Shown here in pieces: positions 19,847 to 36,486 of a stretch of DNA of 64,000 nt. This DNA is from Sediminispirochaeta bajacaliforniensis DSM 16054. Lineage in GTDB: Bacteria; Spirochaetota; Spirochaetia; DSM-16054; Sediminispirochaetaceae. The position numbers and the translations under genes are program-made. The stretch spans positions 1-64,000 of the forward strand of contig NZ_KB899427.1 in the NCBI RefSeq assembly GCF_000378205.1, given 5' to 3'. The notes beneath the pieces are model-generated. The model was not told the DNA's origin. It searched no databases and saw only the letters and a list, made by a program, of their open reading frames with translations. Within the stretch, counting starts at the first letter, position 1. The number at the start of each line of letters is the position of its first letter.

Positions 19847-21034
19847 TCACCCGGCCACGGCACCAAACAGAAGCCCTGCTGTCGTAGAAAGCACCACAAC
19901 GAGAAGAACATACACGATGGTTTTTTTGGCCCCCAACTCGCCACCGATGACAAGCATTGAGGGAAGAGAGAGGGAGGGACCTGCCAGCAGCAATGCCAGT
20001 GCTGGGCCCTGGCCCATTCCCGATCCAAGGAGGCCCTGAACGATGGGGACCTCGGTCAGGGTCGCAAAATACATGAAGGCTCCGCTTACGGCTGCAATGA
20101 GGTTCGAGGAAAGCGAATTGCCGCCGACAAGAGAGGCGACCCACTTTGTGGGTATAAGGGCATCGTGGCCCGGCCTTCCGAGCAGGAAGCCTGCTATAAG
20201 GACTCCACCGAAGAGATACGGAAGGATCTGAAGGGAAAAATCGCGGGTGGCTATTCCCCAGATGCGTATGTCTTCTTTACTGAACCACCTGATGAGGGAA
20301 AAGAGCAGTAACAGAGCAAAGGCCGCCGTTATCAGATATTTATAGCGGAAGATGAGATCCCAGGCAGTGCTGCCGCCCTTGGAGGAAGCCCAATTGACAA
20401 AGACCAGAATCCCGATCATCGAGATCATATAGACTATCATCTGTCCCAGGGTGCGCCCCTCTTTGCCCCCGTCGTAACGAAACATCCGCTCATCGGAAAG
20501 GCGCTCCTCATCCTCCTTTCGGAAAAGCATCTGCATGATCATGCCGATAAGGATCGAGAAGAGTACCGCACCGATCATCCGTGCCACACCAATCTGCCAG
20601 CCGAAAATCTTATAGGAAAGGACAATGGCAAGAATGTTTACCGCCGGTCCGGAATAGAGAAAACTCACCGCAGGGCCTAGGCCTGCACCTTTTTTATAGA
20701 TGCCTTTGAAGAGAGGCAAAACCGTGCAGGAGCATACTGCAAGGATTGCCCCGGACACAGCGGCCACACCATAGGCAACAAGCTTCGGGGCCCTCGGACC
20801 AAGATAACGGATCACCGCCCGCTGGTTCAGGAAAACCGTTATGGCCCCGGCAATGAACATGGCGGGAACCAAACAAAGCAAGACATGATCACGTGCGTAC
20901 TCCCCCAGCATCGAAAAGGCCTCAATCAGCGCCCGGGATACCCAAAGGGAGTCAAAGGGGATAAAATAGGCGGCGAGGAAAACCCCGAAGACGAGAAACA
21001 AAGCCTTGTTCGGGCCGAGTTCTTTGTGTGCCAT
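19847..21034 (-). CDS. Permease of the ArsP/DUF318 family
   Basis: This 395-residue protein has about ten predicted membrane helices. Each half carries a conserved helix pair; the first reads AAVSGAILAVCSCTVLPLF followed by GAGLGPAVSFLYSGPAVNIL, the hallmark of the ArsP_1 (formerly DUF318) permeases, some of which export trivalent organoarsenicals or thiophilic metal ions through cysteines in this helix. The two cysteines in CSC are candidates for that role. It is followed by a small thioredoxin after one base, and divergent to an ArsR regulator with a metal-binding CVC motif. The group therefore looks like a metalloid export unit; the exact substrate is not evident. Confidence 0.83.
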   Translation of the reverse strand: MAHKELGPNKALFLVFGVFLAAYFIPFDSLWVSRALIEAFSMLGEYARDHVLLCLVPAMFIAGAITVFLNQRAVIRYLGPRAPKLVAYGVAAVSGAILAVCSCTVLPLFKGIYKKGAGLGPAVSFLYSGPAVNILAIVLSYKIFGWQIGVARMIGAVLFSILIGMIMQMLFRKEDEERLSDERMFRYDGGKEGRTLGQMIVYMISMIGILVFVNWASSKGGSTAWDLIFRYKYLITAAFALLLLFSLIRWFSKEDIRIWGIATRDFSLQILPYLFGGVLIAGFLLGRPGHDALIPTKWVASLVGGNSLSSNLIAAVSGAFMYFATLTEVPIVQGLLGSGMGQGPALALLLAGPSLSLPSMLVIGGELGAKKTIVYVLLVVVLSTTAGLLFGAVAG

Positions 21035-21035
21035 G

Positions 21036-21290
21036 TTATTTTGCTCCTCTCCCTTCTTCCTCACGGATGAGATCGATGATCTTCTCACTGGGCAGGATCG
21101 ACCCGCTGTTCTTGACGTCCCCGTCGATTGCAATCGCAGGGGTCATCATCACCCCCATCTCCATGATCTCATCAATATTGGTGACCTTTTCGATCTCCAC
21201 ATCCATACCAAGTTCCGCTACGGCCTGCCGCGCGTTTGCCTCAAGGGCCTTACATTTTGGACATCCGGATCCCAAAATCTGAATTTTCAT
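21036..21290 (-). CDS. Small thioredoxin-like redox protein
   Basis: The 84-residue protein is a thioredoxin-fold single domain (MKIQILGSGCPKCKALEANA) with active-site Cys10 and Cys13 in CPKC and a cis-proline region VMMTPAIAID. The family is the redox-active disulfide protein type common in anaerobes and often found next to ArsP-like permeases. It may keep the permease cysteines or the transported metalloid reduced. The start is set by GGAGGTGT before ATG; it lies one base upstream of the permease gene, so it is the first gene of the pair. Confidence 0.88.
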   Translation of the reverse strand: MKIQILGSGCPKCKALEANARQAVAELGMDVEIEKVTNIDEIMEMGVMMTPAIAIDGDVKNSGSILPSEKIIDLIREEEGRGAK

Positions 21291-21319
21291 ACACACCTCC
21301 ATAAGGGTTATCATTCAAT

Positions 21320-21389
21320 GTTTCAAAATTATGAAACTTTGAAAAAACAAAGTCAAGGGATTATTGACAAAGTTTCCACATATGGAAAC
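21320..21389. promoter_or_regulatory. Twin ArsR-type operators and arsR promoter
   Basis: Two 18-base dyads share the form GTTTC-N8-GAAAC: GTTTCAAAATTATGAAAC (21320-21337) and GTTTCCACATATGGAAAC (21372-21389), the second perfect over seven bases per arm. Their centres are 52 bases apart, about five helical turns. A TTGACA (21364-21369) reading toward arsR lies between them, so the second dyad falls between -35 and -10. The first lies close to the divergent thioredoxin gene. They are the obvious binding sites for the ArsR repressor. Confidence 0.65.
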
Positions 21390-21410
21390 AATATCATCAG
21401 GAAAGGAAGA

Positions 21411-21731
21411 ATGATGACAGAGGAAGAAAGAGTTCGTTGCGAATTACGAGCCCATATGTTCAAAGCCCTTGCCCACCCCCTGCGGATTTTCATGTTGGAA
21501 AAGCTGAAAGAACGTCAATGGTGCGTGTGCGAGCTGGCGGAAGAGCTTGGTATGCATAAGTCGACCGTTTCCAAATACCTCACCCAATTGAAAGAAGCCG
21601 GTTTGGTGGATGATCAGAAAGAGGGAACCCTCGTCAAATATCATCTCACAGCCCCCTGTGTACTTGATCTGGCCGCATGTGCGGAAAACGCGGTCCTGCG
21701 AAACAGGAAAAAGCAGCTGGGGCTTTCGTGA
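21411..21731 (+). CDS. ArsR-family metalloregulator
   Basis: This 106-residue winged-helix repressor dissociates from DNA on binding metal or metalloid. The N-terminal helix has MFKALAHPLRIFMLEKL. The metal-binding box is QWCVCELAEELGMHKSTVSK, with Cys38 and Cys40 in the position of the ELCVCDL motif of arsenite sensors. The recognition helix HKSTVSKYLTQLKEAGLV and a wing (DDQKEGTLVKYHL) follow. The start is the first of two ATG codons, behind AGGAAAGGAAG. It is divergent to the thioredoxin-permease pair and probably represses both that pair and itself. Confidence 0.92.
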   Translation: MMTEEERVRCELRAHMFKALAHPLRIFMLEKLKERQWCVCELAEELGMHKSTVSKYLTQLKEAGLVDDQKEGTLVKYHLTAPCVLDLAACAENAVLRNRKKQLGLS

Positions 21732-23383: not shown

Positions 23384-24379
23384 CTAAACGCTTGAGGACC
23401 GCACGACAAATTCGGGGGCCAAGAGATGCCGTTTCGGTTTCGAATCGGGAGAGGCCATGAGATCCAGCAGTTCCATTGCAGCGATACGTCCCATATCGCG
23501 AATCGACTGAGAAACCGTTGTGAGCGGGATTCTGCACAGACTGGAAAGCCGTATATTGTCGTAGCCGACCACCGAGACCTGCTCAGGGATTGGTATCGAA
23601 AGAGCCACCAAATGCTCCATGACCCCCAGGGCGACGTTGTCGTTGGTAATAAAGAGCACACTCCTTTTCCTCTCAATCTCATCCCGTGAGAGGAGAATCG
23701 GAACCAGATCATATCCGTCTTCAAAGGTTTTTACGCCCCGATATCGTTTAATATCGCCCTTGGAGTGATCGACACAGTTATAAAAGCCGTCGACCCGATC
23801 GCCCATAGACTGATGCTCAAAACCCGTTATCAAAATAGTCTGTTCCTTCTCAAGACTATTGATATAGTGGGCCGCGAGCTCCCCTCCCTTTACATTGTCA
23901 CAGGAGACATAGGAAATCTCTTCATCTTCCGGAATACAATTCATGAGCACAAAGGGGATTCCCGCATGCTTAAGAAGACGGATCGTAGGTGACTCAGGGA
24001 GAACCGGGGCAAGAAGAATACCGTCCACCCTGCTGCTGATCAAAGAACGGACAAGCAAAAACTCCCGTTCTTCAACCCAGCGCGAACTGGAAAGTTGCAT
24101 TGAATAATTCTGTGTATTCAGGACCCAGTCCACCCCTTCGGCTATCTCAATAAAAAAGAAGTTTGACAACTCATCTATCACCACCCCGATATTCCTCGTA
24201 GGCGTACCGGCGAGCCCCTGGGCCAGCTGATTCGGAATATAGTCCATCTGCTTCATGAGCTCCAGGACTCGATTTCTGGTCTTGCTGTTTACCATATCGG
24301 GCCTCGACAAAACCCTTGAAACCGTTGATTTGGAAACCCCGGCCGCTTTCGCAATATCCATGATGGTTACTTTATTCAT
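23384..24379 (-). CDS. LacI-family transcriptional regulator
   Basis: This 331-residue repressor has the LacI helix-turn-helix at 4-24 (VTIMDIAKAAGVSKSTVSRV), the hinge helix region LAQGLAGTPT, and a periplasmic-binding-protein-like sugar-sensing domain (IGVVIDELSNFFFIEIAEGV, SRVDGILLAPV, VSVVGYDNIRLSSLCRIPLT). The hinge has GLA rather than the usual SLR, a small variation. It is divergent to the PfkB-HAD operon. The 306-base gap between them carries two matching palindromes, so it very likely represses that operon and itself until the imported sugar or a phosphate derivative binds. Confidence 0.92.
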   Translation of the reverse strand: MNKVTIMDIAKAAGVSKSTVSRVLSRPDMVNSKTRNRVLELMKQMDYIPNQLAQGLAGTPTRNIGVVIDELSNFFFIEIAEGVDWVLNTQNYSMQLSSSRWVEEREFLLVRSLISSRVDGILLAPVLPESPTIRLLKHAGIPFVLMNCIPEDEEISYVSCDNVKGGELAAHYINSLEKEQTILITGFEHQSMGDRVDGFYNCVDHSKGDIKRYRGVKTFEDGYDLVPILLSRDEIERKRSVLFITNDNVALGVMEHLVALSIPIPEQVSVVGYDNIRLSSLCRIPLTTVSQSIRDMGRIAAMELLDLMASPDSKPKRHLLAPEFVVRSSSV

Positions 24380-24400: not shown

Positions 24401-24414
24401 TGCAACCGGTATCA
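24401..24414. promoter_or_regulatory. LacI-type operator 1
   Basis: TGCAACCGGTATCA, a near-palindrome centred on CG as in LacI-family sites, stands about 20 bases upstream of the lacI-type gene. It shares the ACCGGT core and the outer TG...CA with operator 2. Confidence 0.6.
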
Positions 24415-24606: not shown

Positions 24607-24655
24607 TTGACAAGCCCTAAAACCTACCGTACCATAATAACTGAAACCGGTTGCA
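24607..24655 (+). promoter_or_regulatory. Promoter and LacI-type operator 2 of the PfkB-HAD operon
   Basis: TTGACA (24607-24612) and TACCAT (24630-24635) are 17 bases apart. The operator TGAAACCGGTTGCA (24642-24655), palindromic except at one position pair, covers the expected transcription start. Repressor bound here would block initiation. The AT-rich sequence between the two operators (24415-24606) shows no other feature; a DNA loop between operators 241 bases apart is possible. Confidence 0.6.
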
Positions 24656-24685: not shown

Positions 24686-26599
24686 TTGGACACTCAAAAC
24701 ATTTTTACTCAGGCGGCCAAGGTGTCGATTGCGGTCATCGGCGATATGTGCCTAGACGTTTATTACTTTGCAGACAGAGGACGAACGGAAATATCCGTTG
24801 AAACAGGACTGGAAACCCGATCGGTGAATGCATGTAAACATGAGCTGGGAGGAGCCGGAAACGTCGCAGTTAATTGCAAACGGCTTGGGGCAGGTAGAGT
24901 CGATATCTTTGGCATCATCGGAGAAGATGCACACGGCGACATTATCTTATCGCTTTTGGGAAAAGAGGGAATTGGCTCCGCCGGGGTTGTTCGGCAAAGG
25001 GACCAGTGGCTTACCCATCTCTACCACAAGATTTACGAAGGGAAAACGGAAACTCCCCGTTATGATATTGGGAATTATAACAAACCAGAGGCTGCAAATA
25101 TCGAAAAGCTCCTGAAGGTCATTGAAGATACAATAGACGGCTACGATTGCGTGATCATCAATGAACAGGTGATGCACGGCATACATTCCAGGGCCTTTCA
25201 GCAGGGATTAGAAAAGATCATCAAAAAAACAGAGGATCGGGTGACATGGTTTGCAGACTGCAGGAAACTTAATGACGTCTATGCCCATACTGTACACAAA
25301 CTCAATGACAAGGAAGCCTTCGAACTTTTTTCAAGACACACGGCAAAACGCACAAAAAAACGATCCAGTGAAGAAGAAGTCATTCAATGGCTCTATCAAC
25401 GATGGGAACGCCCTCTGATCATGACCCGTGGGGAGGACGGCGCCCTTGTTCACAACGGCCAAGAGATATTCGAGATCCCGGGGCTTCATATCATCAAAGA
25501 AATAGACACGGTAGGGGCCGGAGATGCCTTTATGGCGGGAACGGTTGTAGCCCATGGGGCAGGAGCTTCACTGCAGGATGCGGCTAAAATCGGAAACTTT
25601 ACCGCCGGGGTTTGCATACAGAAGCTATTCGAAACCGGCCACCCTTCGGCACAAGAGGTGGTGGCCATTGCTTCTGATCCCGATTATCGTTACCGGCCGC
25701 AGCTCGCACGGGATCCGCGGCTTGCCCGTAGACATGCAAAAACTCCCATTGAAATTCTCAATGCACACACAAAGGGAAGCTTTTCGGGTACCGCTCCAGA
25801 GGTCGCAATTTTCGATCACGACGGAACCATCTCCACCCTGCGCCAGGGATGGGAAGAGGTGATGAAAAACATGATGGTGAAAAGCATTGCCGGCCGCTAT
25901 TACGAAAAACTCGAAGCATCGCTTCTCAAACAAATAGAAGACTCGGCTAAGGCATTAATCGAAAAAAGCACGGGGGTCCAAACCATCATACAGATGCACG
26001 CGCTCCGTGACCTGATTATATCGATGGGATTGATTCCGAAGGAGGATATCCTTAGCCCCAAGGAATACAAGGAAATTTTCAACACCATGCTGATGGAGCG
26101 AATCAGCGAAAAGCAACGGCTGCTGGAGGATGGAAGACTTTCCACAGAGGATCTGACCATGAAGGGAGCGGTTGCAATGTTGCGCGATCTCAAGGCAAGA
26201 GGCACCCGGCTCTTTCTTGCCAGCGGGACCGACCAGGAAGATGTACGAAAAGAGGCCCGCCTGCTTGGCTATGAAGAGCTTTTCGACGGTGGTATCTACG
26301 GATCGGTAGGCGATGTGGAAAACGACCCCAAGCGATTGGTCATCCGAAACATTATCGGAGAAATAGAAGCAAAAGGTTCTATCGATCCTGCCAGGTGCAT
26401 TGTTTTCGGAGACGGACCGGTGGAAATGAGGGAAGCAAAGAAACACGGACTAACGGCTGTCGGGATCATGAGCGACGAGAGGCAACGCTTCGGTGTCAAC
26501 TATGCCAAAAGGGAAAGGCTCATCCTCGCCGGAGCAGACATGTTGATCCCCGACTTCTCCTGGAAAGATGAACTTTCCAGGTGGTTCGGCTGGAGGTAA
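24686..26599 (+). CDS. PfkB-family sugar kinase fused to a HAD-type phosphatase
   Basis: This 637-residue protein is cytoplasmic and bifunctional. Residues 1-335 are a ribokinase-fold kinase closest in look to the heptose-7-phosphate kinase part of HldE/RfaE: GDMCLDVYYFADRGRTEIS, HELGGAGNVAVNCKRLGAGR, DCRK, and the catalytic DTVGAGDAF with Asp280. Residues about 370-637 are a HAD phosphatase with nucleophile Asp377 in FDHDGT, a helical cap, LFLASGTDQ and FGDGPVEMREAKKHG. The HldE nucleotidyltransferase domain is absent, so ADP-sugar formation is not expected from this protein. A TTG start with GGAAGGG seven bases ahead fits. It is the first gene of a LacI-controlled operon with importer, epimerase and isomerase genes. 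Confidence 0.85.
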   Translation: MDTQNIFTQAAKVSIAVIGDMCLDVYYFADRGRTEISVETGLETRSVNACKHELGGAGNVAVNCKRLGAGRVDIFGIIGEDAHGDIILSLLGKEGIGSAGVVRQRDQWLTHLYHKIYEGKTETPRYDIGNYNKPEAANIEKLLKVIEDTIDGYDCVIINEQVMHGIHSRAFQQGLEKIIKKTEDRVTWFADCRKLNDVYAHTVHKLNDKEAFELFSRHTAKRTKKRSSEEEVIQWLYQRWERPLIMTRGEDGALVHNGQEIFEIPGLHIIKEIDTVGAGDAFMAGTVVAHGAGASLQDAAKIGNFTAGVCIQKLFETGHPSAQEVVAIASDPDYRYRPQLARDPRLARRHAKTPIEILNAHTKGSFSGTAPEVAIFDHDGTISTLRQGWEEVMKNMMVKSIAGRYYEKLEASLLKQIEDSAKALIEKSTGVQTIIQMHALRDLIISMGLIPKEDILSPKEYKEIFNTMLMERISEKQRLLEDGRLSTEDLTMKGAVAMLRDLKARGTRLFLASGTDQEDVRKEARLLGYEELFDGGIYGSVGDVENDPKRLVIRNIIGEIEAKGSIDPARCIVFGDGPVEMREAKKHGLTAVGIMSDERQRFGVNYAKRERLILAGADMLIPDFSWKDELSRWFGWR

Positions 26600-26605
26600 A
26601 GGAAT

Positions 26606-27709
26606 ATGGGTAAGCAATTTGATCGCTCGAGTATGAGCTACTATCCTTTGAAACAGAGAGCGAGCAAGGTGGACATCGTCAAAAGCTGTGTCACCGAAGA
26701 GCAGTTTCAGGGAACCTTAAACCCTGAGGTACGACAGAGGATCGCGATGATCGCAGAAGAGATTCTCAAAGCGCGTAAGAAGGGGGCGTCGGTTATGTGC
26801 GCCTTCGGAGCCCACACCATCAAGAACGGGATGGGACGGCTTTTGGGAGACTTCACACGGAAGGGATGGTTTACCCACCTTGCGACCAACGGTGCAGGGG
26901 TCATTCACGATTGGGAATTCGCCTTTCAGGGAAAAAGCAGCGAGGATGTACGCGCAAACGTTCAAAAAGGGATGTTCGGAACCTGGGAAGAAACCGGTTG
27001 CTATATCAATCTGGCCCTCGCTGTGGGAGCATATGAGGGGCTGGGCTACGGCGCATCGATAGGATCGCTTATCTCCGGGAACGGCCTCGCGATTCCTTCG
27101 AAAGAGGAGTTGCTTACGGTCATATCGTCGGACAACGAGCCCTTGGCCAAGCGTGCGGCTGCCGCGGACCTGCTCGATCTGCTGGAGCAGCTGGAAATCG
27201 AACCGGGCTTTCTTACAATACCCCACCCCTTCGCATCCTACAGTGTCCAGGCCATCGCCTTCGATGCCGGTGTTCCCTTTACCAGTCATCCGATGTTCGG
27301 CCACGATATCATCTATACCCATAAAGCCAACAAAGGGGCCGCGATCGGACGAACAGCGGAACGGGACTTTCTCACCTATGTCCAAAGCGTTTACGGCCTG
27401 GAGGGAGGGGTATATCTCTCCGTAGGATCGGCGGTCATGTCTCCCATGATCTTCGAGAAATCCCTTTCCATGTCACGAAACGTTTTACGCAAACAGCAGC
27501 GGGATATCCGCGACTGCGGTATCCACGTGGTGGATCTGCAGGAGGAAACCTGGGACTGGAGTCAGGGGGAGCCTCCTGCCGACAATCCCGCCTACTACCT
27601 GCGTTTCATGAAAACATTCAACAGGATGGGTTGCAGGGTGGATTATACCTCGGCGGACAACCGGGCTTTTCTTGTCGAACTATATCGCGAACTGAAAAAA
27701 AGGAGCTGA
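26606..27709 (+). CDS. Unrecognised 367-residue protein of a sugar operon
   Basis: The protein has no signal peptide or membrane helices and starts MGKQFDRSSMSYYPLKQRAS. Conserved-looking glycine and histidine motifs suggest an enzyme with a nucleotide-binding fold: MCAFGAHTIKNGMGRLLGDF, THLATNGAGVIHDWEFAFQG, MFGTWEETG, PFTSHPMFGHDIIYTH and YLSVGSAVMSPMIFEKSLSM. The THLATNGAGVIHDWE stretch recalls deoxyhypusine-synthase-like proteins, which use NAD, but the likeness is weak and polyamine chemistry would not fit the neighbours. It lies six bases after the PfkB-HAD gene and two before the epimerase gene, so it almost certainly acts in the same pathway. The exact reaction is unknown. Confidence 0.8.
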   Translation: MGKQFDRSSMSYYPLKQRASKVDIVKSCVTEEQFQGTLNPEVRQRIAMIAEEILKARKKGASVMCAFGAHTIKNGMGRLLGDFTRKGWFTHLATNGAGVIHDWEFAFQGKSSEDVRANVQKGMFGTWEETGCYINLALAVGAYEGLGYGASIGSLISGNGLAIPSKEELLTVISSDNEPLAKRAAAADLLDLLEQLEIEPGFLTIPHPFASYSVQAIAFDAGVPFTSHPMFGHDIIYTHKANKGAAIGRTAERDFLTYVQSVYGLEGGVYLSVGSAVMSPMIFEKSLSMSRNVLRKQQRDIRDCGIHVVDLQEETWDWSQGEPPADNPAYYLRFMKTFNRMGCRVDYTSADNRAFLVELYRELKKRS

Positions 27710-29050: not shown

Positions 29051-30322
29051 ATGACGAAAAAGCCATATCTGTTTGTACTGGCGCTCTGTTTCGTCCTTCC
29101 TGCACTGCTGTTTGCAGGAGGAAATCAGGAAAGTGAGAATTCGGGAAAATCTCTCGAGATCTTCAGCTGGTGGACAGCCGGTGGTGAAGCCGAAGGGCTT
29201 CAGGCCATGCTTGATGTCTTTCATGAGAAATATCCCGACATCGAGATCATCAACGCAACAGTCGCAGGCGGTGCCGGTACCAATGCAAAAGCAGTGCTTG
29301 CAACGAGAATGCAAGGAGGAAATCCTCCCGATGCTTTTCAGGTACATGCAGGCCATGAGCTGATCGACACCTGGGTGGTCTCCGGCTATATGGAACCTGT
29401 CACCTTCATCCTGAAGGAAAACGGCTGGATGGACAAATTCCCCAAGGATGTCATCGACATTATCTCCTATAAGGGCGAGGTGTACAGTATTCCGGTAAAT
29501 GTCCACCGCTCGAATGTCATGTGGTACAACCCCAAGCTCTTCAAGGATAACGGCCTCGAACCCCCAAAGAATATGGATGAGTTTTTTACCGTTGCCGAAA
29601 AACTGAAAGCAGCAGGTGTCACCCCCCTCGCACTCGGAGATACCAACGGATGGCCTGCCACCCACCTTCTTGAAAGCGTCATTCTCGCATCCACAGGGCC
29701 TGAAAAATATCGGCAGCTGTGGGAGAGAAAGGTCTCATGGAGTGATCCCGATGTGCAGGAAGCCCTTGAGAATTATGCCAAAATGATGAATTATACCAAT
29801 AGTGATCACGCTGCGCTCACCAATATGGATGCGGCCGGTTATGTTGCCGAAGGGAAGGCCGCGATGAATGTCATGGGAGACTGGGTTGCCGGTTACTACA
29901 AATCTCAGGACTATACCCAGGGAGTCGATTGGGACTGGATGCCCACTCCCGGAACGCAGGGGAATTTCATTATGCTTTCCGATTCCTTCGGTTTAGCAAA
30001 AAATGCACCGAATCGTGAAAACGTCATCAAATGGCTCGAGGTTTGTGCTTCCAAAGAGGGGCAGGATGCCTTTAATCCGATCAAAGGTTCCATTCCCTCA
30101 AGGATAGACGGCGATCGTTCAAAATATGATGCCTACCTCAATGCTGCAATGGATGATTTTGCTTCGAACGAAATCGTCCCCAGTGTTGCCCATGGAGCCG
30201 CCGTGTCGGAGGCCTGGATAACAAAGATCAACGACATCATGAGCGTATTTACCACCGATCTTGATGTCAAGAAAGCCACTATCGAGTTCCAGGCGGTAGC
30301 CGACCGCTACGCTCCCAAATAA
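29051..30322 (+). CDS. Sugar ABC transporter substrate-binding protein
   Basis: This 423-residue exported protein has a cleavable signal peptide (MTKKPYLFVLALCFVLPALL, cleavage near FAGGN) without a lipobox cysteine. The mature protein resembles the glucose/mannose-binding type of family-1 binding proteins: LEIFSWWTAGGEAEGLQAML, VNVHRSNVMWYNPKLFKDNG, GDTNGWPATHLLE, MNVMGDWVAGYY and DSFGLAKNAPNRENVIKWLE. The tryptophan pair in SWWTAGGE is typical of that group. Its gene has a strong AAGGAGGAG ribosome site and is followed by a stem-loop, as usual for the abundant component of importers. Two permease genes follow but no ATPase. Confidence 0.92.
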   Translation: MTKKPYLFVLALCFVLPALLFAGGNQESENSGKSLEIFSWWTAGGEAEGLQAMLDVFHEKYPDIEIINATVAGGAGTNAKAVLATRMQGGNPPDAFQVHAGHELIDTWVVSGYMEPVTFILKENGWMDKFPKDVIDIISYKGEVYSIPVNVHRSNVMWYNPKLFKDNGLEPPKNMDEFFTVAEKLKAAGVTPLALGDTNGWPATHLLESVILASTGPEKYRQLWERKVSWSDPDVQEALENYAKMMNYTNSDHAALTNMDAAGYVAEGKAAMNVMGDWVAGYYKSQDYTQGVDWDWMPTPGTQGNFIMLSDSFGLAKNAPNRENVIKWLEVCASKEGQDAFNPIKGSIPSRIDGDRSKYDAYLNAAMDDFASNEIVPSVAHGAAVSEAWITKINDIMSVFTTDLDVKKATIEFQAVADRYAPK

Positions 30323-30401: not shown

Positions 30402-31295
30402 ATGTACTGTCCGAAACAAGAAACACGCAAAGGCTTGCTGGTTGTTCTCCCCCTATCCGCTGTCCTCTTTGTATTTGTCTACGGATTCATCCTTTGGTCG
30501 TTGAAGGTATCGTTTTCCGCCTGGGACGGCATCCTCCCGAACATGAATTTCATAGGTCTTGAGAACTACCGGCGCCTTTTTAGCTCCCAGAGGTTTGTGA
30601 CCGACTTGTTCAATACCCTCTATTTCACCCTCTTTTTTATGGTCGTCTGCATCGTAGGCGGTTTCTTTTTAAGCTATCTTCTCTACTCCCGGCTCAGAGC
30701 CGAAGCGCTCTTTCGCACCATCTATCTCTTCCCCCTTTCACTCTCCTTTGTTGTGACCGGTGTGTTGTGGCGCTGGGTTCTCTCCCCGGAGGTAGGGGTC
30801 AATGCACTCTTCCATATGCTCGGCTTTAAAGCCAGTTTCGGCTGGTTCACCTCAACCCAGAGCTTCGGAAAATTCAATTACGCGCTGATATCCCTCATCA
30901 TCGCAGCGTCCTGGCAGTATCTCGGTTATACCATGGCGATGTTTCTGGCAGGGCTTCGCGGTATTCCCGATCAGATCATCGAATCGGCCGAACTCGACGG
31001 TGCAGGCGAATTTCGTATCATTCGGAGTATTCTGCTTCCCATGCTCAAGCCCATTACCTTTTCGGCAATGATCGTCCTGGGTCACATATCCCTCAAGATC
31101 TTCGATCTGGCCTACGCCATGACGGGAAAGGGACCCGCATTTGTTACCGATTTCCCCGGTCTCTTCATGTTTGAGACGACCTTCAGGGGAAACCACTATG
31201 CCGAAGGAGCTGCCATTTCCATCATCATGCTTCTTCTCATAGCCCTTGTCATCATTCCCTATCTCTATTCGACCTTTAGAGGAGAAGAGACATGA
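30402..31295 (+). CDS. Sugar ABC transporter permease (MalF/UgpA type)
   Basis: This 297-residue inner-membrane protein has six predicted helices (first: GLLVVLPLSAVLFVFVYGFI) and the EAA loop IESAELDGAGEFRIIRSILL. It carries the usual family segment LMKPITFSAMIVLGHISLKIFDL-like LKPITFSAMIVLGHIS. It overlaps the next permease gene by four bases. Together they form the channel for the sugar bound by the preceding protein. The energising ATPase must come from elsewhere, plausibly the MalK-type gene at 18.5-19.6 kb. Confidence 0.92.
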   Translation: MYCPKQETRKGLLVVLPLSAVLFVFVYGFILWSLKVSFSAWDGILPNMNFIGLENYRRLFSSQRFVTDLFNTLYFTLFFMVVCIVGGFFLSYLLYSRLRAEALFRTIYLFPLSLSFVVTGVLWRWVLSPEVGVNALFHMLGFKASFGWFTSTQSFGKFNYALISLIIAASWQYLGYTMAMFLAGLRGIPDQIIESAELDGAGEFRIIRSILLPMLKPITFSAMIVLGHISLKIFDLAYAMTGKGPAFVTDFPGLFMFETTFRGNHYAEGAAISIIMLLLIALVIIPYLYSTFRGEET

Positions 31296-32113
31296 GAAGC
31301 AGAACATCTGTTGTCGTAAAATATTTTCTTGCCATTCTCTGCGCCCTGTTGTTTCTCTTTCCCCTTTATGTGCTTCTGAACACCAGCCTCAAGCCCTTTT
31401 CCGAGGTACGAATCAGTGAAATGTGGATTCCGGCACAACACATCAGTTCAGAAGGCTTTGTCGAATCCTTTTCTAAACTGCGGGGGAACCTTCTCAACAG
31501 CTTTTTGCTGGTCATCCCCGTATCATTCTTTTCTATCCTTTTCGGCTCGCTGAACGGATATGTCTTTTCGAAATGGAAATTTCGCTTTTCGAATCTTATT
31601 TTCGCGCTTATCATCTTCGGAATGTTCATTCCCTACCAGAGCATCCTCATACCCCTGGTCCAGTCATTAAATAAGATGGGCCTCTACGGGCACTTGAAGG
31701 GGCTCATCATTACCCACATCATCTACGGACTTCCGATATCAACCCTTATGTTCAGAAACTACTATGCAAAGCTACCCGATGAGCTGCTTGAGGCGGGAAT
31801 GCTCGACGGTCTCGGTATCTGGGGTGTTTTTCGAAGAATTATCGGCCCCATATCCGCACCGGCAACGGTGGTGGTTCTGATCTGGCAGTTTACAAGCGTC
31901 TGGAACGATTTTCTCTTTGCGGTGGTCATCACCCAAAAACCATCGATTCAGCCGATAACGGTAGCCCTGCAGAACCTTGCAGGGAGTCAGGTTATCGAGT
32001 GGAACGTTCAGATGGCCGGTGCGCTTATCGCCGCGATTCCCACCCTTTTGGTCTACATTTTCCTTGGCAAGTACTTCATCAGGGGGCTTCTCGCAGGATC
32101 GGTGAAAGGGTAA
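31292..32113 (+). CDS. Sugar ABC transporter permease (MalG/UgpE type)
   Basis: This 273-residue membrane protein has six predicted helices. The periplasmic loop NTSLKPFSEVRISEMWIPAQ and the conserved NSFLLVIPVSFFSILFGSLN precede NGYVFSKWKF, which is the region damaged in the other cluster's permease and is intact here. The EAA loop is LLEAGMLDGLGIWGVFRRII. The C-terminal end YFIRGLLAGSVKG is the family standard. It is translationally coupled to the preceding permease gene. Confidence 0.92.
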   Translation: MRSRTSVVVKYFLAILCALLFLFPLYVLLNTSLKPFSEVRISEMWIPAQHISSEGFVESFSKLRGNLLNSFLLVIPVSFFSILFGSLNGYVFSKWKFRFSNLIFALIIFGMFIPYQSILIPLVQSLNKMGLYGHLKGLIITHIIYGLPISTLMFRNYYAKLPDELLEAGMLDGLGIWGVFRRIIGPISAPATVVVLIWQFTSVWNDFLFAVVITQKPSIQPITVALQNLAGSQVIEWNVQMAGALIAAIPTLLVYIFLGKYFIRGLLAGSVKG

Positions 32114-32122
32114 GGTAGGCAC

Positions 32123-33070
32123 ATGGCTTTACAGAACAGTACTCACAAGTTTTTCATCGGTATCGATATCGGCGGCACAAAAACGGCGGTTTCTCTCGGC
32201 GACGAGGCGGGGAATATTAGAAAAAAGGAGCGCTTTGCCACGGCCGATCACTACGAAGAGGTGATCGACCAGGCCTGTTCCTCTGTCCGGGCCATGCTGG
32301 ATTTCGCCTCGCCGCACAAGGTAGAGGCCATAGGGATCAGCTGCGGAGGCCCCCTTGATCCGGCAGCCGGTATTATTCAGGCACCGCCGAACCTTCCCTC
32401 CTGGATCGATGTTCCGGTGGTCGACCTCATTGCACGACGTTTCGATCTTCCCGTTTATCTGGAAAACGATGCAAACGCCTGTGCCCTTGCCGAGTGGTAT
32501 TGGGGTAATGGAAGGGGATGCCGGAATCTGATCTTCCTCACCTTCGGGACAGGGCTTGGAGCGGGGTTCATTCTCGACGGACGGCTCTATTCGGGAACCA
32601 GCGGCCTTGCCGGAGAGGTCGGCCATCTGCGGCTTGCCGAAGACGGTCCTCTTTGTTACGGAAAAGCGGGTTCCTGGGAGGGATTCTGCAGCGGCAGCGG
32701 CATGAGCCGTCTCTACGAGATGAAATTCGGCCGCAGCCTCAGCGCTAAGGAGATCTGCGACCAGGCGGAAGCGGGGGAAGCCCGGGCCCTGGAGGTTTCC
32801 GATACCACCGCAGAATACCTCGGCCGGGGGCTTGCCCTCCTCGCCGATCTTTTCAATCCCGAGCGGGTGATCATCGGAAGCATCTTCTCAAGAAGCGAAG
32901 GCCTATTTCGCAAGCGGATGGAAGCGGTGATGAAGGCGGAAGCCCTGCCGCGTACCTTCAGCGACTGCAAGGTGCTGCCTGCCGGGCTTGGGGAACATCT
33001 CGGAGACATGGCAGCCCTCGGTGTCGCCATTGGAAAACTACGTCAAAAGGAAGGTTCTTATGATAGATGA
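32123..33070 (+). CDS. ROK-family sugar kinase with degraded zinc motif
   Basis: The 315-residue protein is a ROK kinase, probably phosphorylating the imported or epimerised sugar. The ATP site is FIGIDIGGTKTAVSLGD, the sugar site contains ENDANACALAEWYWG with the catalytic aspartate in NDA, and LTFGTGLGAGFILDG is the phosphate loop. ROK proteins normally coordinate zinc through CxCGxxGCxE; here the region reads GPLCYGKAGSWEGFCSGSG, with all three motif cysteines replaced (Leu, Tyr, Ser), although EGFCSG lines up with the EAYxSG end. There is no N-terminal helix-turn-helix, so it is an enzyme rather than a regulator. Its end overlaps the SIS gene by eleven bases. Confidence 0.86.
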   Translation: MALQNSTHKFFIGIDIGGTKTAVSLGDEAGNIRKKERFATADHYEEVIDQACSSVRAMLDFASPHKVEAIGISCGGPLDPAAGIIQAPPNLPSWIDVPVVDLIARRFDLPVYLENDANACALAEWYWGNGRGCRNLIFLTFGTGLGAGFILDGRLYSGTSGLAGEVGHLRLAEDGPLCYGKAGSWEGFCSGSGMSRLYEMKFGRSLSAKEICDQAEAGEARALEVSDTTAEYLGRGLALLADLFNPERVIIGSIFSRSEGLFRKRMEAVMKAEALPRTFSDCKVLPAGLGEHLGDMAALGVAIGKLRQKEGSYDR

Positions 33071-33695
33071 CAAGCATCTGGACGAGTTGATAGAGCGCTA
33101 TCCGGCCCTCGCCCCGATACAAGAAGCAATTGCAATGGGTGCCGATGCGATGAAGAAAAGCATCGATGCAGGAGGGAAAATTCTGGTCTGCGGAAACGGA
33201 GGAAGCGCCGCCGATGCCGATCACATCGTGGGCGAGCTGATGAAATCCTTCGTAAAAAAACGGCCCATAGCGGATTCTCTGAAGCAGGCCCTCCTTGCGG
33301 CGGACGCCGTATTGGGCAGTGAACTTGCAGATTCACTGCAGGGGGGAATTCCGGCGATCAGCCTGACCCAGCACACCGCCCTCTCCACCGCCTTTGCAAA
33401 CGACGTGGATCCGCATATGACCTACGCCCAGCAGACAGCGGTTCTCGGAAATGCGAACGACATCTTTATCGGGATATCAACATCGGGAAATGCGAAAAAC
33501 GTTCGCTATGCGGCAATCTGTGCAAAGGCAAAAGGGCTTACCGTGATCGGCCTTACCGGAGAAAGCGGCGGCAAGCTGAAGGCGCTTTGCGACATCTGCA
33601 TCACCGTACCGGAAACGGCAACCTTTAAGGTACAGGAGCTTCACCTTCCGGTCTATCATACCCTCTGCCTCATGCTCGAAGAGCATTGCTGGTAG
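33060..33695 (+). CDS. SIS-domain phosphosugar isomerase, GmhA type
   Basis: This 211-residue protein matches sedoheptulose-7-phosphate isomerase (GmhA) in length and motifs: GGKILVCGNGGSAADADHIV, GELMKSFVKKRPI, SLTQHTALSTAFANDV and FIGISTSGNAKNVRYAA. GmhA makes D-glycero-D-manno-heptose 7-phosphate. Relatives of this type with an extra loop (ADSLKQALLAADAVLGSELA) between strands also occur in catabolic operons, so the substrate here could be another ketose phosphate. It is the last gene of the operon and is translationally coupled to the ROK kinase gene. With the PfkB-HAD fusion it reconstitutes isomerase, kinase and phosphatase steps. Confidence 0.86.
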   Translation: MIDDKHLDELIERYPALAPIQEAIAMGADAMKKSIDAGGKILVCGNGGSAADADHIVGELMKSFVKKRPIADSLKQALLAADAVLGSELADSLQGGIPAISLTQHTALSTAFANDVDPHMTYAQQTAVLGNANDIFIGISTSGNAKNVRYAAICAKAKGLTVIGLTGESGGKLKALCDICITVPETATFKVQELHLPVYHTLCLMLEEHCW

Positions 33696-34831: not shown

Positions 34832-35263
34832 TCACTCCGTTTCAATGCATTTTGCGGCAAAATCCTGTATCGTTGAAAAAACAGAATGCAACCCATGGAA
34901 TCGATCCGTAGATATCTGGCTCTTTATATTGGTTTCCTCGATAAAGCGAGGATGAAAAGACAAAATTTCCTCTGGCGTTCTGTTATCCAAAAGCAGTATA
35001 TACATAGCAAGGAAGCCTCTGATAATAAGTGCTTCACTATCAGCTCGAATTCGGACTTTTTTATCGACATACTTCAATATGATCCATACACCTGATTGGC
35101 ACCCTGGAACCTTTCGCTCATTAGTCCTTTCCTGCAATTCGATATGTGGTATATCCACAGAAATCTCTATTAAATATTCGTACTGTAAAAACCAGTCTCC
35201 TAAATTATTAATGTCCTCTATGAAGGTATCTTCCAACTGAGAAATAGACATTTCTTCAGTCAT
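34832..35263 (-). CDS. sufE: SufE-like sulfur acceptor protein
   Basis: SufE takes persulfide sulfur from the cysteine desulfurase SufS and passes it on for iron-sulfur assembly. The 143-residue protein has the family pattern: LEDTFIEDINNLGDWFLQYE at the N-terminus, the acceptor Cys55 in RKVPGCQSGVWI, and ADSEALIIRGFLAMYILLLD. It overlaps sufS by four bases, so the pair is coupled. The scaffold proteins SufBCD are not encoded in this window, so the pair must feed a scaffold encoded elsewhere or another sulfur acceptor. Confidence 0.9.
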   Translation of the reverse strand: MTEEMSISQLEDTFIEDINNLGDWFLQYEYLIEISVDIPHIELQERTNERKVPGCQSGVWIILKYVDKKVRIRADSEALIIRGFLAMYILLLDNRTPEEILSFHPRFIEETNIKSQISTDRFHGLHSVFSTIQDFAAKCIETE

Positions 35264-36486
35264 TTTTTAATCCACCTACTCATTAAATCCTGTGTTTGTC
35301 GTATTGCCAGGCATGCCTCATCGATTTCTGTGCGGGTATTATAAAATGCAGGCGATAATCGAAGCGCCGCAGTAACACCGAACCGCTGTAATGCCGGTTG
35401 AGCACAATGCGTACCCGAGCGGATTGCAACGCCCAATTTGTCTAGTATACTAGCCGCATCATAAGGATGCATAGTATCCAAAACAAAAGAAACTACACCT
35501 GCGCGATTAACAGGATGACCTAAGACATGTAGTCCTGCAACTTCAGAAAGTTTTTCCACGGCATAATCGACAAGCATACTTTCATAATCGGCAATGGCTT
35601 TACGCCCAAGTCTGTCTATATATCGTATTGCTTCCGCTAAGGCAATAGCACCTGGATAGTTGGGCGTTCCAGCCTCTAATCTATACGGCAGCGGTGCTTC
35701 GGTAAAATCTTGATCCGTTACAGTACCTACCATCCCGCCTCCAAGACGTGATGGTTTCAACATCTCCAAGAGTCTTCGTTTACCATATAGCACACCGATA
35801 CCGGCAGGCCCCATGATCTTATGGCCGGAAAAACAGTAAAAATCATAATCTTCTGCAGAAACATGTGTATCGCAGTGCCTAATGCCTTGTGCTCCATCCA
35901 CAAAGATTACAGCACCGGCCTCATGAGCCAGCCGCGTCATCTCGCCCAACGGCATTACTGTTCCCGTAAGATTCGAAACCTGTGTAACTGCGACCAATTT
36001 AGGATTCTGAGAAAGAATTTTCTTGTATGCCTCCATATCAGGCATTCCATCAGGACATGGTATGATTGCAAACGTTGCCCCCGTTCTATGGCACAGCCTT
36101 TGCCACGGAAGAAAATTGGAATGGTGTTCAAGTTCGGTTATGACAATCATATCATTGATATGTAACGTCTCACGCAGCCCATCAGCTGCCATATTGATTG
36201 AATCGGTGGCCCCTTGAGTAAAGACAATCTCTTCTTTACTATCCGCCCCCAAAAAATCACGGACAGTTATTCGCGCATCTTCATAAGCCTGGGTCGACCG
36301 TTCACTAAGGGTATAGATGCCACGATGTATATTTGCATTATCATGCAGATAATGAGAACGAAGCCGCTCCAATACGCAGAGAGGCATCTGCATTGTCGCA
36401 GCATTATCCAGATAAATGAGCGGTCGGCCATCTATTTTTGTTGAAAGTATGGGAAAATCTTCCCGAATTTTTGCTACAGGTAACAT
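35260..36486 (-). CDS. sufS: Cysteine desulfurase, SufS type
   Basis: This PLP enzyme removes sulfur from cysteine, forming a persulfide. The 408 residues show the group II pattern: IYLDNAATMQMPLCVLERL, NANIHRGIYTLSERSTQAYE, ELEHHSNFLPWQ, the PLP lysine Lys223 in FSGHKIMGPAG, and the active-site Cys361 in IRSGTHCAQPAL. It is complete. The gene lies 18 bases downstream of a sugar-isomerase-like gene and overlaps sufE, an unusual mix in one transcript. Its base composition is lower in G and C than the genes on either side of the island. Confidence 0.93.
   Translation of the reverse strand: MLPVAKIREDFPILSTKIDGRPLIYLDNAATMQMPLCVLERLRSHYLHDNANIHRGIYTLSERSTQAYEDARITVRDFLGADSKEEIVFTQGATDSINMAADGLRETLHINDMIVITELEHHSNFLPWQRLCHRTGATFAIIPCPDGMPDMEAYKKILSQNPKLVAVTQVSNLTGTVMPLGEMTRLAHEAGAVIFVDGAQGIRHCDTHVSAEDYDFYCFSGHKIMGPAGIGVLYGKRRLLEMLKPSRLGGGMVGTVTDQDFTEAPLPYRLEAGTPNYPGAIALAEAIRYIDRLGRKAIADYESMLVDYAVEKLSEVAGLHVLGHPVNRAGVVSFVLDTMHPYDAASILDKLGVAIRSGTHCAQPALQRFGVTAALRLSPAFYNTRTEIDEACLAIRQTQDLMSRWIKK

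Follow-up and report, generated by a model that had tools for sequence, protein, structure and literature searches.

The fold shared by deoxyhypusine synthase (DHS) and ornithine cyclodeaminase is known to us only from amine chemistry. Ornithine cyclodeaminase closes a ring from an oxidised intermediate, and GmhA and HldA are enzymes of D-glycero-D-manno-heptose phosphate. In DHS, NAD oxidises a carbon, the oxidised intermediate is used for spermidine cleavage, and the hydride is then returned, so that NAD is regenerated within the cycle (excerpt of PMC7226451). NAD contacts of the Pyrococcus enzyme include Thr101, Ala102, Gly103 and Glu107 (excerpt of PMC7432094). The structure of AgrE, which has an ornithine-cyclodeaminase domain, contains NAD+ according to the title of entry 6lrg. 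In Geobacter sulfurreducens, GSU2086 lies, by locus-tag order, between hldE (GSU2085) and gmhA (GSU2087), and an excerpt of PMC5585712 gives like transposon defects for the three genes, with electrode scores of -3.1, -3.2 and -3.7 for GSU2085, GSU2086 and GSU2087, respectively.

The gene described here, at 26606-27709, belongs to the family named after GSU2086. It lies in a window (the whole stretch of DNA analysed, 64,000 nucleotides of Sediminispirochaeta bajacaliforniensis) within a one-direction run of genes for a PfkB-HAD fusion, the GSU2086-family protein, an AGE epimerase, the binding protein and both permeases of an ABC transporter for sugar, a ROK kinase and, last, a GmhA-like SIS isomerase. 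This operon looks geared to the use of mannose or a similar sugar. The features are as follows.

23384-24379, minus strand: LacI-family regulator, divergent from the operon (Pfam, NCBIfam)
24401-24414, plus strand: second copy of the palindrome, 1 mismatch, near the lacI start
24607-24635, plus strand: promoter-like site TTGACA-17-TACCAT, upstream of the operon, 10 of 12 matches
24642-24655, plus strand: LacI-type palindrome TGAAACCGGTTGCA, 0 mismatches, right behind the promoter-like site
24686-26599, plus strand: PfkB sugar kinase joined to a phosphatase-like HAD domain (Pfam, NCBIfam)
26606-27709, plus strand: GSU2086-family protein (NF052581), long type, predicted DHS/ornithine-cyclodeaminase fold, 367 aa
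27712-28995, plus strand: AGE-superfamily epimerase; among solved structures 8h1k is nearest (E 2.7e-161)
29051-30322, plus strand: sugar-binding protein of an ABC transporter (Pfam, NCBIfam)
30402-31295, plus strand: ABC transporter permease, assigned from its position and sequence (homologues in the same place at other loci)
31292-32113, plus strand: ABC transporter permease (on the same grounds)
32123-33070, plus strand: sugar kinase of the ROK family, most similar among solved structures to glucokinases
33060-33695, plus strand: GmhA-like SIS isomerase, matching 2xbl (phosphoheptose isomerase, 9e-36) in two stretches

The nearest named family of the PfkB part is HldA/RfaE domain I, under the cut-off of that family, and the nearest solved relative of the fusion is 4e84, a D-beta-D-heptose 7-phosphate kinase (7e-13). 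The epimerase relative 8h1k is presumably the mannose 2-epimerase of Runella slithyformis. The title of a paper on a Runella mannose 2-epimerase appears among the references of PMC13363691. The SIS isomerase scored 137.5 bits against TIGR00441, under the cut-off of 209, and about 25 extra residues separate its two conserved halves, each of which matches GmhA. In the control region, TGNAACCGGTTNCA has a perfect copy at 24642-24655; the pattern occurs 6 times in the window against a shuffle mean of 2.35, a count that is no independent test since the pattern was derived from the same stretch, and promoter-like sites barely exceed the shuffled mean in the region. Elsewhere in the window, an ArsP-type permease gene (Pfam) faces an ArsR-like regulator frame recognised by eye (19847-21731), and a class-V aminotransferase gene (Pfam) lies beside a frame that looks, by eye, of SufE/SufU type (34832-36486).

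The product of 26606-27709 is confirmed as a real, strongly conserved protein locked in the operon. The frame is open over 367 aa on the plus strand, and the three motif-like blocks quoted in the preliminary description (GAHTIKNGMG, TNGAGVIHDWE and SHPMFGHDIIYTH) are all present in the protein. The tight spacing noted there was also verified: 6 bases separate the gene from the stop of the PfkB-HAD fusion (26599) and 2 bases from the epimerase ATG (27712). The genome holds one copy of the gene. A contig scan across genomes gave 403 stretches encoding relatives of the protein, of which 80 were retained, and an alignment of 80 sequences (own and 79 homologues, drawn from 92 matches, two of them short, with near-copies omitted) has 60% mean column identity. 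Because relatives are conserved and the invariant columns of this alignment include residues of the quoted motifs, 26606-27709 is a gene rather than a chance frame.

The family of the gene is already catalogued in NCBIfam, named after a locus tag and without an assigned function. The protein scored 313.9 bits against NF052581 ("GSU2086 family"), above the cut-off of 250 and over positions 1-300 of the 301 in the model; the Pfam search of the 367-aa protein gave no family above its cut-off. The preliminary statement that no family could be named with confidence has to be amended. Literature searches turned up one paper that names GSU2086 and, among the papers listed, none that describes a function for the family. 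No clear match to a known, unrelated enzyme family, which the preliminary description had named as what would speak against it, turned up.

Two types of protein can be distinguished in this family. Short-type proteins of about 305 aa were found in four Spirochaetota genomes (L123, L124, L150 and L152; L and G numbers denote our loci and genomes), and they form a separate clade joined to the long type by a long branch. Since the short-type protein of L124 scored 390.1 bits against NF052581, above the 313.9 of our protein, the namesake GSU2086 of Geobacter is taken to be of the short-type subfamily. Both types share 37 invariant positions (21 of 21 sequences), with many His, Lys, Asp and Glu among them. 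All four short-type loci lacked a nearby kinase or SIS match. The long type is patchily distributed across Spirochaetota (10 of the 296 genomes drawn), and about a dozen phyla are represented among the retained loci. Bacillota sequences fall among those of spirochaetes in the tree, and those of Kiritimatiellota, Verrucomicrobiota and Lentisphaerota are intermingled.

The faint likeness to the DHS fold mentioned in the preliminary description was upheld by structure prediction, Foldseek, VIA-align and profile comparison. An AlphaFold2 model built from the 80-sequence alignment (pLDDT 94.0, pTM 0.92) placed DHS 8put_A first in Foldseek (4.3e-07), followed by AgrE (8.8e-07). The best VIA-align match was the ornithine-cyclodeaminase domain of AgrE (6lrf_A; Z 18.9, rmsd 3.6, 220 aligned), followed by archaeal 3c2q (Z 17.9) and DHS 7cmc_A (Z 17.7, 245 aligned), with DHS overall at Z of about 17. 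Across the 50 matches listed, Z ranged from 15.8 to 18.9, which places the modelled protein in the fold superfamily with a Rossmann-like NAD domain. A model of the short type (pLDDT 82.6) retrieved the same folds (Foldseek E 3.6e-08). In hhalign, ornithine-cyclodeaminase-type proteins were matched with E 4.6e-07 at residues 43-112, the first Rossmann stretch, and ten DHS-family proteins of the phylum with E 0.0057; the latter value improved to E 0.00074 when the alignment was widened and the accuracy threshold set low. The tie to DHS is weak by sequence alone and clear by predicted structure.

Since the fold is shared with the NAD enzymes DHS and AgrE/ArgZ, use of NAD is likely by homology. 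In the 8put alignment, as read, the NAD-loop positions of DHS align with N95, G96, A97 and H101, four residues that do not vary among 21 sequences spanning both subfamilies, and N95 and H101 are invariant in all 80 long-type sequences. On the basis of homology and this conserved loop, the 367-aa protein most likely holds NAD.

The protein is not a true DHS, since it scored 13 bits against PF01916, far under the gathering score of 27, and no PF01916 match was found in its genome. The position of human DHS His288 holds no His (profile alignment, as read). K336, the lone lysine near the region of human DHS Lys329 and a candidate counterpart of it in the long type, is invariant in 80 of 80 long-type sequences and absent from 4 of 4 of the short type, so that the catalytic His and Lys of DHS appear not to be conserved family-wide. 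H239 and K285, considered as counterparts of these residues, were unsupported by the alignments and dropped. The match to the equivalog TIGR00300 was confined to residues 43-111 and reached 19.6 bits where 410.8 are required, and the protein therefore falls outside that equivalog as well.

The gene is linked across genomes with the kinase-HAD fusion, with the isomerase and with alpha-mannosidases. A phylogenetic profile, which the preliminary description had proposed, was run on 98 genomes (own and 97 relatives). The gene has 18 carriers, 17 above the cut-off and one (G082) in which it is interrupted by a contig end; in all 18 the kinase-HAD fusion is adjacent on the same strand, and a related kinase occurs in 1 of the 80 other genomes (19 in total; G041 has the kinase part only). 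Fisher's test gave 9e-19 for this co-occurrence, ignoring kinship. Neighbours were counted in 77 loci, namely the 80 minus L050, L064 and L081, where ORF calling did not yield the gene: PfkB, HAD, GmhA-like SIS, LacI, ROK, AGE, GH38 and GH92 were found near 50, 47, 32, 27, 25, 11, 8 and 2 loci, respectively, in many phyla. Where both flanks exceeded 5 kb (36 loci), 26 had a kinase or SIS and 10 had neither. The preliminary claim that the protein is an essential step of the pathway finds partial backing at most, in the linkage to kinase-HAD (18 of 18 carriers against 1 of 80), and those 10 loci, which lack both kinase and isomerase, speak against it.

Some loci have particular arrangements. Five Treponema bins (L022-L024, L026 and L028) have 6-phosphogluconate dehydrogenase, kinase-HAD, the GSU2086-family gene and then a 341-aa protein (L026:11245-12267; 385 aa in L023 by ORF call), the L026 copy of which had no Pfam or NCBIfam match. 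At Bacteroidales loci (L060:5387-6238; also L053 and L073), a GKRP/MurQ-like SIS lies beside the GmhA-like SIS, kinase-HAD and the GSU2086-family gene. In L155 and L157, of one Spirochaetota family, the gene directly follows ArgJ, of the ornithine pathway, without a nearby kinase match.

The theme common to the contexts appears, from gene content, to be a manno-configured aldose and its phosphate. GH38 alpha-mannosidase lies near 8 of the 77 loci, where chance would put it near about 0.25, a rough figure for which about 75 strong copies were counted by eye, a 3.2 Mb genome was assumed and class-level rates were used for other phyla. Per-genome co-occurrence is weaker, with 12 of 18 carriers against 22 of 80 (Fisher 0.0026, ignoring kinship and genome size) at a cut of E < 1e-20 that was set after the list was seen. 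Of the alpha-mannosidases, 5 of GH38 and 1 of GH92 were confirmed by Pfam, and the remainder come from our own clusters or profiles; the strong GH38 of the present genome sits on a different contig. A ManA-like protein follows the gene in L163. The idea that the gene replaces ManA is unsupported, since ManA is present in its own genome and in 79 of the 98. With ManA in the own genome, and with AGE and ROK, which would by themselves convert mannose to glucose 6-phosphate if they act as named, the need for the gene, the isomerase and kinase-HAD is left unexplained. ADP-heptose synthesis was rejected for S. bajacaliforniensis, because a search of its genome for an HldC-type adenylyltransferase (TIGR02199) gave no match and the route is thus not evident there.

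The reading that we prefer, with somewhat less than even confidence, is that the protein is an NAD enzyme that epimerises or isomerises a manno-configured sugar, free or phosphorylated, in a redox-neutral reaction. It would briefly oxidise one hydroxyl and hand the hydride back to the sugar, the net result being epimerisation or isomerisation, and the GmhA-like isomerase and HldA-like kinase-phosphatase would act together with it in an operon that would import and use mannose, mannosides or a related sugar. We infer the redox-neutral course because the relatives work so, and the sugar substrate because of the gene context; epimerisation would be one choice among several. Weighing against this reading are the unexplained need just mentioned, the 10 well-flanked loci devoid of kinase and isomerase, the ArgJ neighbour in L155 and L157, and the probable short type of the Geobacter protein together with the lack of kinase and SIS matches at the four short-type loci.

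The same transient ketone could also allow loss of an adjacent group or closure of the chain before the hydride is returned, making the protein a sugar-phosphate lyase or cyclase. DHS and ornithine cyclodeaminase both use their oxidised intermediates in such ways, and the GKRP/MurQ-like SIS of L060 may hint at an eliminated side group, but no gene to receive what is split off appeared among the families tallied at the 77 loci, and we regard this course as unlikely. An ordinary dehydrogenase, which would oxidise an aldose or its phosphate with NAD and release NADH, has a similarly low probability: GFO/IDH/MocA oxidoreductases near 12 of 77 loci and the 6-phosphogluconate dehydrogenase beside the pair in the termite Treponema would fit it, whereas lactonase and dehydratase are absent among the families counted in those loci, and DHS, the best-studied relative, regenerates its NAD within one cycle in the PMC7226451 excerpt. 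Amine chemistry like that of the relatives, on a polyamine, ornithine or amino sugar, would agree with the fold and profile relation, and it fits better in L155 and L157, where the gene adjoins ArgJ; because the neighbours are otherwise sugar enzymes and the His288 and K336 positions speak against it, we consider it improbable.

The name of TIGR00300, the second NCBIfam match, would suggest the nickel-pincer nucleotide (NPN) as cofactor instead of NAD, and LarC is indeed present in the own genome. An NPN enzyme should have larC wherever it occurs, and LarC was found in 8 of 18 carriers; the 10 without it, several of them 95-100% complete (G011, G026, G028 and G058), disfavour NPN as an obligatory cofactor, and with AgrE solved with NAD+ this reading becomes highly improbable. 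Slightest of all is the chance that the protein is no catalyst and instead senses NAD or a sugar, holding or steering kinase-HAD, its constant partner, much as a catalytically dead DHS paralogue of trypanosomes is reported to activate its own partner. The 37 positions invariant across two distant subfamilies, with many His, Lys, Asp and Glu among them, suggest catalysis.

Returning to the redox-neutral epimerase or isomerase, a wider proposal is more doubtful still: that this family is the first branch of the DHS/ornithine-cyclodeaminase fold to act on sugars, epimerising or rearranging a manno-configured sugar phosphate with NAD by hidden redox, and that it completes a route for mannose or mannosides that has gone unrecognised in many phyla, with another form in the heptose synthesis of Geobacter. 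The other enzymes of such a route would be the GmhA-like isomerase and the kinase-phosphatase fusion, whose kinase part is HldA-like. The surprising part is the sugar context around the fold of amine enzymes. The family is widespread and highly conserved. Should sugars be its substrates, the fold would reach beyond amine chemistry, and a mannose or heptose phosphate route overlooked by annotation pipelines would come to light.

Compared with the known systems, the protein has in common with DHS the predicted fold and the position of the NAD loop, and the profile alignment with DHS pairs an Asp in its second half. The ornithine cyclodeaminase domain of AgrE/ArgZ and archaeal 3c2q (TIGR00300, PF21570) are its best fold match, and it differs from them in its sugar-gene context and in a sequence match confined to the residues noted above. 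The likeness to the heptose enzymes GmhA and HldA/HldE is that of its neighbours rather than its own: the isomerase and kinase of the operon are nearest to them, both below the equivalog cut-offs. Within the GSU2086 family it is a long-type member, of 367 aa against a model of 301 positions, which it matches over the whole length and above the curated cut-off. Its counterpart in Geobacter, GSU2086, taken as short type and on a long branch from it, is flanked by a heptokinase and GmhA.
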